Below, one piece after another: positions 4,641 to 8,565 of a DNA stretch of 8,565 nt (positions are counted from its first letter, which is position 1; every line of letters begins with the position of its first letter). The stretch is from the NCBI GenBank assembly GCA_021157815.1, contig JAGGVT010000158.1, positions 1-8,565 on the forward strand, given 5' to 3'. The position numbers were made by a program, and so were the translations under genes. The DNA is from a bacterium (GTDB lineage: Bacteria; JAJVIF01; JAGGVT01). The notes under the pieces were generated by a model. That model did not search any database and was not told the DNA's origin. It was given only the letters and a program-made list of their open reading frames with translations.

Positions 4641-4792
4641 TGTTGTGGGGTGTAAAAAAGGGGACAGTCCACAACAAGATTCAATTCTGGCATTATCAAT
4701 TAACATTTTTCAAATACCCAGCGTTTATCGTATCTATAAACTTTTTGGGACATTCCCCTTTTTTACAGTCCCCTTTTTTACAGCCCACAACA
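4641..4792. repeat. 152-base element with 28-base terminal inverted repeats (MITE-like or REP/BIME-like)
   Basis: Positions 4641-4668 and 4765-4792 are inverted repeats matching at 26 of 28 bases, separated by 96 bases. Both arms contain TGTAAAAAAGGGGAC. The left arm also closes on itself (TGTTGTGG 4641-4648 with CCACAACA 4669-4676). The right arm is preceded by a tandem 15-base duplication, TCCCCTTTTTTACAG at 4754-4768 and 4769-4783. The wording, A-run plus GGGGACAGTCC, resembles palindromic repeats that I recall near REP-associated tyrosine transposases in diverse bacteria; that link is from memory. No transposase gene and no clear target-site duplication are visible, so a non-autonomous or long-resident copy is likely. 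It lies between nuoK and nuoL, and as RNA it could fold into a long stem-loop just upstream of the nuoL start. Confidence 0.75.
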
Positions 4793-5255: not shown

Positions 5256-5786
5256 CTAATCCTTTTTTGCCAGCATTAAAGCGCCGATCATTGTAATAGT
5301 CAGGATAAAACCAGTGACCCAGAAAACAAGCGTGTAACTAAGCATTAACGATCTGCCAATCATTTTAGTGTTGTCCATCGGCGCTACAGTTGGGTCAACC
5401 TCATAATTCCAGTTGCCATACGCCAGTGTCGCGATTAACACAAGCGCCATAGCCATAGAAAGGAGCATCGCCCAGATCGACTGTCGGTTTTTGTAGATGA
5501 TATCCCGCCCGATGATACGTTTGGAGAGCATCAAAGCAAAGAAGATAAGGACAGTTACAGCGCCAGCGTAAATCAGTATTTCAGCCGCGGCGAGAAATTC
5601 AGCGCCGAATATGACATAAATCCCCGCGGTGCAAATAAATGCCAGACAAAGGCTGAGCGTGCAGTGAACGATATTGCGCATCATGACAACGCCGACAGCC
5701 GCGCCCAAAAGCGCAAACGAAAAAACCCAGAAATAAAATAACGGGTTTACGAAAAATAAATGAACTGGATTAACTGTCGTTTCCAT
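5256..5786 (-). CDS. nuoJ: NADH-quinone oxidoreductase subunit J (NuoJ)
   Basis: NuoJ is the five-helix membrane subunit next to NuoA, K and H. Its third helix is thought to change conformation when the quinone reaction is coupled to pumping. The 176-residue product matches the family from about residue 17 onward (FYFWVFSFALLGAAVGVVM). It contains the diagnostic TM3 segment GAEFLAAAEILIYAGAV (61-77) followed by a hydrophobic stretch ending at FFALML. Five hydrophobic segments are visible, with a short soluble loop near 122-142 before the last one. Length is ordinary for the family. The ATG at 5784-5786 lies inside the end of nuoI (17-base overlap), preceded by GAGAAG in the nuoI tail as a plausible ribosome binding site, so translation is probably coupled to nuoI. 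Confidence 0.96.
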   Translation of the reverse strand: METTVNPVHLFFVNPLFYFWVFSFALLGAAVGVVMMRNIVHCTLSLCLAFICTAGIYVIFGAEFLAAAEILIYAGAVTVLIFFALMLSKRIIGRDIIYKNRQSIWAMLLSMAMALVLIATLAYGNWNYEVDPTVAPMDNTKMIGRSLMLSYTLVFWVTGFILTITMIGALMLAKKD

Positions 5787-6522
5787 CGGTCTTCTCTTCA
5801 GGCTTCTCCTTGTTTTCGTCTTCCGGTTCAGGTGATTCCTTTACCGTTTTCTCTTTATCAAGATCAACGGATGGTTTCGCATCCTGTTTTTTAGCTGCCG
5901 GTTTCGCTGGCGATTTCTTTTTTGCCGCTTTGATTGCCTGCATATTAGCCCACTCATCATCGGATGCCCGCCGTTGAATGTCTTCCATCCTGACTTTCAA
6001 AAAGCCGGTTCCCCTGCCTGTGTCGGAATATTCATAGTTTTTCCCGAGTATAATGCAGGATTCAGGGCAAACCTCCTGGCAAAGTCCGCAAAAGAGGCAT
6101 TTACCCAAATCCACATTATATTCCAGCAGGTCGCGTTTTCTCTTTTCGCTTTCGCTTTTTTCAAATTTTAACTCGATGCAGCCAATCGGACAAATATTCA
6201 CGCAGGCGTTGCAGCATGTACAGATTTGTTCGCCGTCCGGTGATACCAGCAGTTCATGCCTGCCCCTGAAACCGTCCGCGATTGGCAGTTTCTCTTCCGG
6301 GTATTTGACAGTAACTTTCGGAGCAATCATCGCGGCTTTTGTTACGTTCAAGCCCTTGACCAGTCCGAAGAGCGGAACCACATGGCCAAGCATTCTTTTG
6401 ATTAACGGCTCGGGTTTTGCGAATTCGGTATCCAGGAATTCAAGCAGATCCTGAGCGTAATCAGCGCCAATCGGCTGGTCGGCAATTCTTTCCGTTGTGG
6501 TATTTTTGTCGTTTTCTATCAT
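5770..6522 (-). CDS. nuoI: NADH-quinone oxidoreductase subunit I (NuoI), 2x[4Fe-4S] ferredoxin-like subunit
   Basis: NuoI carries clusters N6a and N6b and passes electrons along the peripheral arm toward N2 and quinone. The 250-residue product has two canonical CxxCxxCxxxCP motifs: C101, C104, C107, C111 and C142, C145, C148, C152, 31 residues apart. An N-terminal region with LIKRMLGHVVPLFGLVKGLN (39-58) matches the membrane-contacting helix of the family. From about residue 197 the protein becomes a low-complexity tail rich in Lys, Glu, Pro and Ala, first basic and then acidic, which is not part of the usual subunit of roughly 160-200 residues. The start ATG at 6520-6522 has an A/T-rich leader without a Shine-Dalgarno sequence. 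Upstream lies a 303-base repeat-rich spacer; downstream it overlaps nuoJ by 17 bases. Confidence 0.96.
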   Translation of the reverse strand: MIENDKNTTTERIADQPIGADYAQDLLEFLDTEFAKPEPLIKRMLGHVVPLFGLVKGLNVTKAAMIAPKVTVKYPEEKLPIADGFRGRHELLVSPDGEQICTCCNACVNICPIGCIELKFEKSESEKRKRDLLEYNVDLGKCLFCGLCQEVCPESCIILGKNYEYSDTGRGTGFLKVRMEDIQRRASDDEWANMQAIKAAKKKSPAKPAAKKQDAKPSVDLDKEKTVKESPEPEDENKEKPEEKTDGNDS

Positions 6523-6558: not shown

Positions 6559-6605
6559 CCGGGAAATGGATTCCCGGGCTACATTCTGCAGACTGGAAGT
6601 CCGCA
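6559..6605. repeat. Two adjacent short hairpins, possible dispersed repeat
   Basis: A perfect 7-base inverted repeat (CCGGGAA 6559-6565, TTCCCGG 6571-6577, 5-base spacer) is followed after 9 bases by a second palindrome (6587-6594 with 6598-6605, 3-base loop). On the minus strand the second stem is fully paired over 8 positions with one G-U pair, while on the plus strand that position is an A-C mismatch, so the folding RNA would be the nuo transcript. No T-run follows on the minus strand, so this is not an intrinsic terminator. The composite looks like an intergenic dispersed repeat, but only one copy is visible here. It lies between nuoH and nuoI, just downstream in the transcript of the octamer array. 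Confidence 0.45.
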
Positions 6606-6627
6606 CCACAAATTATCTGGGTTACAT

Positions 6628-6827
6628 GCTAACTTTCTAACCTGCTAACTTGCTAACTTACTAACCTGCTAACTTGCTAACTTGCTAACCTGCTAACCTA
6701 CTAACCTACTAACCTGCTAACTTACTAACCTGCTAACTTACTAACTTACTAACCTGCTAACCTACTAACCTACTAACCTGCTAACCTGCTAACTTGCTAA
6801 CCTGCTAACCTGCTAACTTGTTAACTC
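6628..6827. repeat. Tandem octamer array, 25 units of (G/A)CTAAC(C/T)T
   Basis: Twenty-four consecutive units of exactly 8 bases, plus a degenerate 25th (GTTAACTC, 6820-6827), run without a single insertion or deletion. All 24 share CTAAC at unit positions 2-6 and T at position 8. Only position 1 (G or A, once T) and position 7 (C or T) vary. In the sense of the nuo transcript the unit is A-R-GTTAG-Y. The array fills most of the nuoH-nuoI spacer, and its last unit overlaps the nuoH stop codon (6826-6828). Since 8 is not a multiple of 3 and each unit contains TAG in the sense strand, all three sense frames are closed. It is a minisatellite-like tract; there are no spacer sequences, so it is not a CRISPR array. 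Function is unknown. Confidence 0.95.
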
Positions 6828-8565
6828 ACTCACTCATTATTTCCTGCTTGCCAACAACGCTTTTGTATTCCTCTATTTCAGATTCATCCTCCAAAATCGC
6901 GGGGATGAATTTAACCCCTTTTCTCTTCGCGATAATATAGTCCTTTATCATTATGGCAACAAGCGCGATTGTTATCAGATAAAAGAACCACATTATTGAC
7001 AGTTCGATTGTCTTTGTGCCAAACCAAAGAGTATAGATGTCATACCCCATGAATCCAAGAATAAACGCAATTTGAGCATAAAGGAGTTTGGGCTGGATGA
7101 CTTTTCTGTATGGGTAAAACACATCGGATATGATTGGCAGTGATATGCAGAGCATTAAGAATCGCACGGCTGGATATTTGAACGGTTTCGCGAGATTTCC
7201 GAACCAGAGAATCCAGTTCGTCTCTCCTATATTGTGAAGGTTCCAGTCGCAGAAATGGAAATAACCAATCACAAGAAGGTTGATTATCGCGATTGGGAGA
7301 AGCACTTTCCATGCAAAATCCGTTAACTGGTCGATTCTCAACCGAGGGAAAGTCGCTCTGAACCATATCATCACAGAAACAAGGATTGCCACCTTAAGGA
7401 AGAACCAGCAGAAGTAATAGAAATATTCACCGACACTGTGCGCGATAATGTCCATCCCGGGAATTGCGGGGCCCATCCATCCGCCGAGGAAGCAGGTTAC
7501 AGCAATCGCGCTAACGAGAATCATGTTGCCGTACTCGCCAAGGAAGAACAAACCGAATTTAATTCCGGTGTATTCGGTGTGGAATCCGGCGACAATCTCG
7601 CTTTCGCCCTCTGGAAGGTCGAAAGGCGACCGGTTCGTTTCAGCGACAGCCGAGATGAAGTAAACGATAAATCCTATCAGCAGAGGGATAACAAAGGGCA
7701 ATCGCGGTGATCCTTTTGTGCGTTCTCTCTCATCGTATTTCAAACGCAATTCCTGCCCGGCTATGTGCACCTCTTTTTTCTTCTGGGCTGGCAGTGTTAT
7801 ATATTCGCTATTGAATCTTGTTTTGTAATCCGACCAGATTGCAGCGGTATTGGCATCTGCGGGATCAGTTTCAGTTCGATTCAGGAAATTGGTCATTGCA
7901 GCCCAATCGAGCATATTCGACCTGTCGAAATCATACGCTCGAGTTCGAATATAATCCACTTCAAGAAAGGTGTTCAGTTCAGATGGAGAAATATATTTCT
8001 GCGCATTGACGATATCCACCATCGACAGGCTTCCAGTGAGGAGGACAACTGTCAGGAGTGTAAGAATAACTGGAACTTCATAGGAGATAATCTGTCCGGC
8101 GCTTCTGATACCACCAATCATCGAGTATTTATTATTGGAACCGAATCCGGCGATGACAATCCCGACCACGACAAGCGAGCTCATGGAAAGGACAAACATC
8201 AGTCCGATTCCCAAATCAGTGCCAATCATTGGCACCTGAACAAGAAGGGGCATTTCCTGATTGGGGATGTTAAGAAGGAGTGTCGCGTTCGACATTGGAA
8301 TAGCCAGGAAACAAACGGCCATCGGGGCAAAAGCTACAATAGGCGCGAAGAACCAGATAATCCAGTCAACGCGCACCGGCACGATATCTTCTTTTATTAA
8401 CAGCTTGACAGCATCGCAGAGCGGTTGGAGAAGTCCCTGCCAACCACAACGATTTGGTCCCAGTCGATAATGCGCCCACGCGAGTATTTTCCTCTCAAGC
8501 AGTGTCAGATAAGCGATAGCGAGTATCAATGGCAAAATTACGCAGATGAAAATCAACGCGCCCAT
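6826..8565 (-). CDS. nuoH: NADH-quinone oxidoreductase subunit H (NuoH), enlarged; 5' end possibly beyond window
   Basis: NuoH forms the membrane part of the quinone-binding chamber and joins the peripheral and membrane arms. Family signatures are clear: [24 protein letters not shown] and [10 protein letters not shown] (22-63), [16 protein letters not shown] (151-166, E163), and [16 protein letters not shown] followed by [10 protein letters not shown] (308-334), with the acidic quinone-site loop intact. At 579 residues it far exceeds the usual roughly 320-350. Two additions explain this: about 100 hydrophilic residues (about 188-288) between [12 protein letters not shown] and the helix before AETNR, and a C-terminal extension (about 437-579) with about three more hydrophobic segments and an acidic end. 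The ATG is the very last codon of the window, and only 23 residues precede LERK's ERK against about 34-35 in E. coli and Thermus, so the true start may lie upstream. Confidence 0.95.

Follow-up and report, generated by a model that had tools for sequence, protein, structure and literature searches.

The nuo locus and its octamer array

The window analysed here makes up one entire contig (8565 bases) of a draft genome of 3.2 Mb in 221 contigs. It contains nuoH, nuoI, nuoJ, nuoK, nuoL and nuoM, all on the minus strand and assigned by Pfam match together with gene order; the features around the nuoH-nuoI boundary are given in Table 1. The nuoH product is unusually long (579 aa), and its Pfam match is split in two by a stretch of ~100 aa, ahead of residue 292, that does not match. 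Additionally, a short 15-bp tandem repeat (ACAGTCCCCTTTTTT) is present between nuoL and nuoK (window positions 4750-4783).

Table 1. Features at the nuoH-nuoI boundary of the window
Feature	Position	Strand	Basis
nuoI-like ferredoxin subunit (4Fe-4S dicluster), next gene downstream of the array	5770..6522	-	Pfam
REP-like palindrome GTAGCCCGGGAATCCATTTCCCGG with a GTAG tag, lying 3' of the array; belongs to a dispersed family	6559..6582	-	
Octamer array, (YARGTTAG)n in transcript sense	6627..6825	-	TRF, pattern count
nuoH (NADHdh, PF00146), TGA stop at 6826-6828, frame runs to the contig end	6826..8565	-	Pfam

The period-8 array between nuoH and nuoI, which had been reported in a first-pass annotation, is real: TRF assigned it 24.9 copies of period 8 with zero indels, and the 3-unit pattern has 22 matches in the window against 0 in 200 shuffles. 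It consists of 24 full units and one degenerate unit. Variation had been described as limited to unit positions 1 and 7, which holds for units 1-24 (in the frame of that annotation, G/A with one T at position 1 and C/T at position 7) but not for unit 25, adjoining nuoH, which reads GTTAACTC and has an altered core. On the minus strand, the nuoH stop is followed directly by GTTAACAAGTTAGCAGG, and the junction in gene direction is GAGTGA-GTTAACAA-GTTAGCAG... The array is polar, with a sharp end at 6825, at the nuoH stop, and a decaying end near 6627.

Distribution of the octamer family

The search of the genome and its relatives that the first-pass annotation had proposed yielded 1613 exact 3-unit matches in the draft genome, against 0 for a reversed-pattern control, and none in three same-class relatives. 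The pattern of an array end was found at 118 places in the draft, which corresponds to on the order of 100-120 arrays in this genome. Among 56 other, more distant genomes there was one short, chance-like 3-unit match in all; a degenerate octamer pattern gave a handful of short runs outside the source genome in 385 sampled genomes, and in 39 genomes of one other phylum the family was not found beyond two short runs. The same-class relative G002 has a few perfect octamer arrays of other units (TCTCCCTA, GACCTACC; L262 15974-16012 and L263 10824-10876), and these do not follow the placement rule of the YARGTTAG family described below.

The arrays were characterised in 875 kb of the genome, picked mostly for listed arrays, using simple, uncurated ORF calls and a threshold of at least 5 units. 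This sample contains 95 arrays, with a median of 17 units (range 5 to 40), so that, as in dispersed short tandem repeats (minisatellites/VNTRs), head-to-tail units of one consensus are present at many loci. A compound tandem repeat of ~75 bp was also found, in five copies that each combine a short octamer run and a spacer (L068 18762-19137).

The genes carrying arrays are functionally mixed and include prophage head genes. A regulatory or spacer device particular to the interval between nuoH and nuoI, as initially suggested, would account for an array set between two complex I genes, but the occurrence of the same family behind unrelated genes throughout the genome largely refutes it. A nuo-specific role is therefore not supported and is considered highly improbable, and the nuo copy needs no nuo-specific function.

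Position and orientation relative to genes

None of the 95 arrays lies inside a gene (875 kb, simple ORF calls). When arrays are read in the GTTAG sense, the left neighbour points into the array in 67 of the 91 arrays having a left neighbour, and in 58 of these 67 the array starts -24 to +11 nt from the stop codon of that neighbour. By a measure that does not depend on gene calling, an ORF of at least 100 codons ends within -15..+24 nt of the array start in 58/91 cases, compared with 2.7% of random positions and 4/88 at the other end of the array on the opposite strand (left versus right end, p=2e-18). Between co-directional genes, 48 arrays run with the gene sense and 9 against it (p=1.5e-7).

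In 27 arrays the stop codon is itself the TAG of a unit, and in 20 of the 27 it is the TAG of the first unit (p=2e-5), even though the TAG of the second or third unit would do equally well; array and reading frame therefore tend to share the same phase. About a third of the arrays have no detectable stop codon at their start, and one lies 3' of a tRNA gene and two 3' of terminators. Across the genome-wide family, the gene-side (5') end is sharp and the far (3') end decays.

Intrinsic terminators follow arrays at the same rate as other genes (16/55 versus 83/292). Most arrays are therefore probably transcribed as part of the 3' UTR, and a function as terminator substitutes was rejected, as the downstream terminator rate is unchanged. 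The earlier idea of an element acting in the transcript sense fits the strong co-orientation and the stop-codon placement.

Array turnover and the prophage copies

The same four common unit types are shared among arrays, with a unit order private to each array and a composition that differs from array to array. Neighbouring units in an array tend to differ. Within an array, blocks of 3-7 units are repeated in tandem far more often than expected under a second-order Markov model, which, together with the array-specific composition, points to local duplication and deletion. Recent copying of whole arrays between loci was rejected because no unit order is shared beyond the Markov model. The synthesis of arrays at gene ends by reverse transcription of an RNA template, in a telomerase-like manner, would agree with a common unit alphabet in array-specific order and with the polarity of the arrays; against it, the genome (91% complete) has no RVT_1 match and the block duplications indicate turnover at the DNA level, so that such an origin is given very little credence.

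A tailed-phage prophage (portal, protease, major head and adaptor genes) is present at L109 (G000:C167), with octamer arrays between its head genes. The portal, protease and major-head genes have arrays at their 3' ends, and therefore acquired DNA has also been occupied by arrays. A contig from a viral collection (L243, IMGVR_UViG_3300016457_001200) is ~99.9% identical to the prophage region, the two differing over 9.4 kb by ten substitutions and two indels. Both indels, of 120 and 40 bp, lie inside arrays and correspond to 15 and 5 whole units. This supports real variation in array length between near-identical copies, with assembly collapse as a possible contributor, and agrees with the earlier expectation that unit number could differ between strains; unit number thus varies among close relatives, as in minisatellites/VNTRs, on the evidence of two near-identical assemblies in which collapse is possible.

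That the length or the very presence of the arrays is an artefact of assembly is most improbable. The draft is in 221 contigs, some with ends near arrays, and repeats can collapse in short-read assemblies, but the arrays are heterogeneous, each with a unit order of its own, and arrays at the same sites as in the prophage are carried by a separate viral contig, one of them identical over 300 nt. Arrays change in length by whole units, through local duplication or deletion of blocks of several units.

Unit conservation and RNA folding

Among 1537 units genome-wide, T5 and T6 are almost never altered. The core varies at its other end, with A to G in 26, A to T in 11 and G to A in 42 of the 95 arrays, and variants occurring once per array number 0 at T5/T6, 10 at A7 and 13 at G8. 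The first-pass claim that GTTAG never changes, true of units 1-24 in the nuo array, is therefore reduced to GTT hardly changing, and the constraint proposed for part of the unit is partly supported, by GTT but not by AG. Mutation context or homogenisation could contribute to this near-invariance. GTTAG is not avoided elsewhere in the genome (observed/expected 0.91). In the whole sample, the spacer bases Y and R are correlated, with CAG and TAA favoured over CAA and TAG (odds ratio 5.2).

Self-pairing at GUUAGY, via G-U pairs, is predicted for the sense RNA. Predicted folding is restricted to this strand (-25.6 kcal/mol per 104 nt, against -4.4 for the antisense), and the array region of the window is predicted to fold better than shuffles (z -5.5). 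Permuted octamers of equal composition are predicted to fold equally well (fraction 0.52), and variant frequencies do not correspond to predicted folding cost. For these reasons an RNA rod of GUUAGY pairs was rejected as a target of selection, and no structural role is claimed here.

The repeats could nevertheless be functional 3'-UTR elements, in which GUUAGYAR repeats after the stop of some ~100 genes would recruit a protein or influence the mRNA end (its stability, termination or protection from readthrough). The strict co-orientation, the placement at stop codons, the near-invariant GTT with its distribution of singleton variants, the sense-only predicted fold and its excess over shuffles in the window, as well as the scarcity of short arrays, all speak for such a function. 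On the other side are the equal folding of permuted octamers and the indifference of variants to folding cost, as well as unit numbers that range from 5 to 40 and differ between near-identical strains, carriers that are functionally mixed and include prophage genes, and the absence of the family from same-class relatives. On balance, this explanation is considered unlikely. A more elaborate form is more doubtful still, namely that ~100 genes, including those of the prophage, carry a co-oriented octamer tract from the stop codon that acts in the mRNA 3' UTR via repeated GUU-centred sites and is delivered by a mechanism recognising gene 3' ends. Neutrality alone, for its part, leaves both the sharp stop-codon placement and the near-invariant GTT unaccounted for.

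REP palindromes and the proposed origin of the arrays

The genome also has a palindromic REP family with a GTAR tag (GTARCCCGG...CCGGG), having 136 sites in the 875 kb, one of which is the window member in Table 1. REP-like palindromes are found 3' of 30/95 arrays, compared with 29/292 other gene ends. The association is specific for GTAG REPs; with dispersed repeats in general, arrays are only weakly associated relative to other long gaps (52/68 versus 152/249). Nine Y1_Tnp genes (RAYT-like) are present; two are flanked by REPs, and one of those two also by an octamer array. Two Y1 transposase genes with inverted REP copies on their flanks (L255 1305-2087 and L256 362-1652) form a RAYT-REP arrangement.

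GTAG REPs described elsewhere are found 3' to genes, and the neighbouring ORF often takes its TAG stop from them (PMC3733652). Because REPs occur 3' of arrays, Y1 genes are flanked by REPs, and GTAG REPs elsewhere have this habit of supplying stops, it is plausible that the arrays spread in connection with the GTAG-REP/RAYT system that the genome also contains, although this step is weaker than the others proposed here. No target-site duplication of the kind expected of classical transposon insertion was found at array ends.

Array lengths between 3 and about 24 units are evenly represented, and there are just two 2-unit cases. Slippage growth from single-unit seeds was rejected as the main origin, as there is no excess of GTTAG behind stops without arrays and 2-unit arrays are almost lacking. 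Given the few short arrays and the lack of seeds behind other stops, it is proposed that arrays arrive as pre-formed multi-unit tracts rather than by growth from one-unit seeds. Their tolerance at stop codons would follow from the TAG in the unit, by which the three sense frames are all closed within 24 nt. The nuo array thus probably belongs to a dispersed, lineage-specific family of octamer minisatellites that sit mostly at gene 3' ends and are close to GTAG-REP biology.

Comparison with known repeat systems

Similarly to GTAG REPs, which are moved by RAYT (PMC3733652), the octamer arrays are dispersed, intergenic and mostly 3' of genes, giving a TAG to the ORF, and both GTAG REPs and Y1 transposases are present in the array-bearing genome. 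They differ in being tandem arrays and not palindromes with a GTAG tag: the array itself is not a DNA palindrome and folds weakly as DNA, and its movement by RAYT is putative. The mycobacterial interspersed repetitive units (MIRUs) are likewise mobile-looking, sit at codon boundaries and disturb expression little, and are described as inserted at start codons, each unit containing a coupled ORF (PMC12548453), whereas the unit here is 8 bp, is found at stop codons, has stops in all sense frames and contains no coupled ORF. Integron attC arrays offer no match, as the genome has no integron integrase over the TIGR02249 cut-off.

The Brucella octamer VNTRs (HOOF-Prints) are likewise a family of 8-bp units at several loci, with hypervariable unit number; eight loci were studied there, against ~100 here, and the excerpt of that work mentions no stop-codon placement (PMC1513380). 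The heptamer GATAGRA of Chloroflexus aurantiacus (22 satellites) and an octamer family of Mesorhizobium ciceri also have one short unit of limited degeneracy dispersed in one genome, with fewer copies than here and, in the excerpted text, no report of orientation to genes (PMC6749651). The YARGTTAG family represents a new variant among dispersed bacterial minisatellites, marked by an unusual rule of placement.

The repeat family is larger than first reported, but it is not specific to nuo. Bacterial dispersed satellites are usually described without a positional rule, whereas this family has a quantitative one: it is co-oriented, begins at the stop codon, has a first unit that gives TAG and decays with polarity. 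The rule ties the arrays to REP/RAYT elements, which occupy the same niche, and makes it possible to test whether they originated by targeted insertion or through selection in the 3' UTR.
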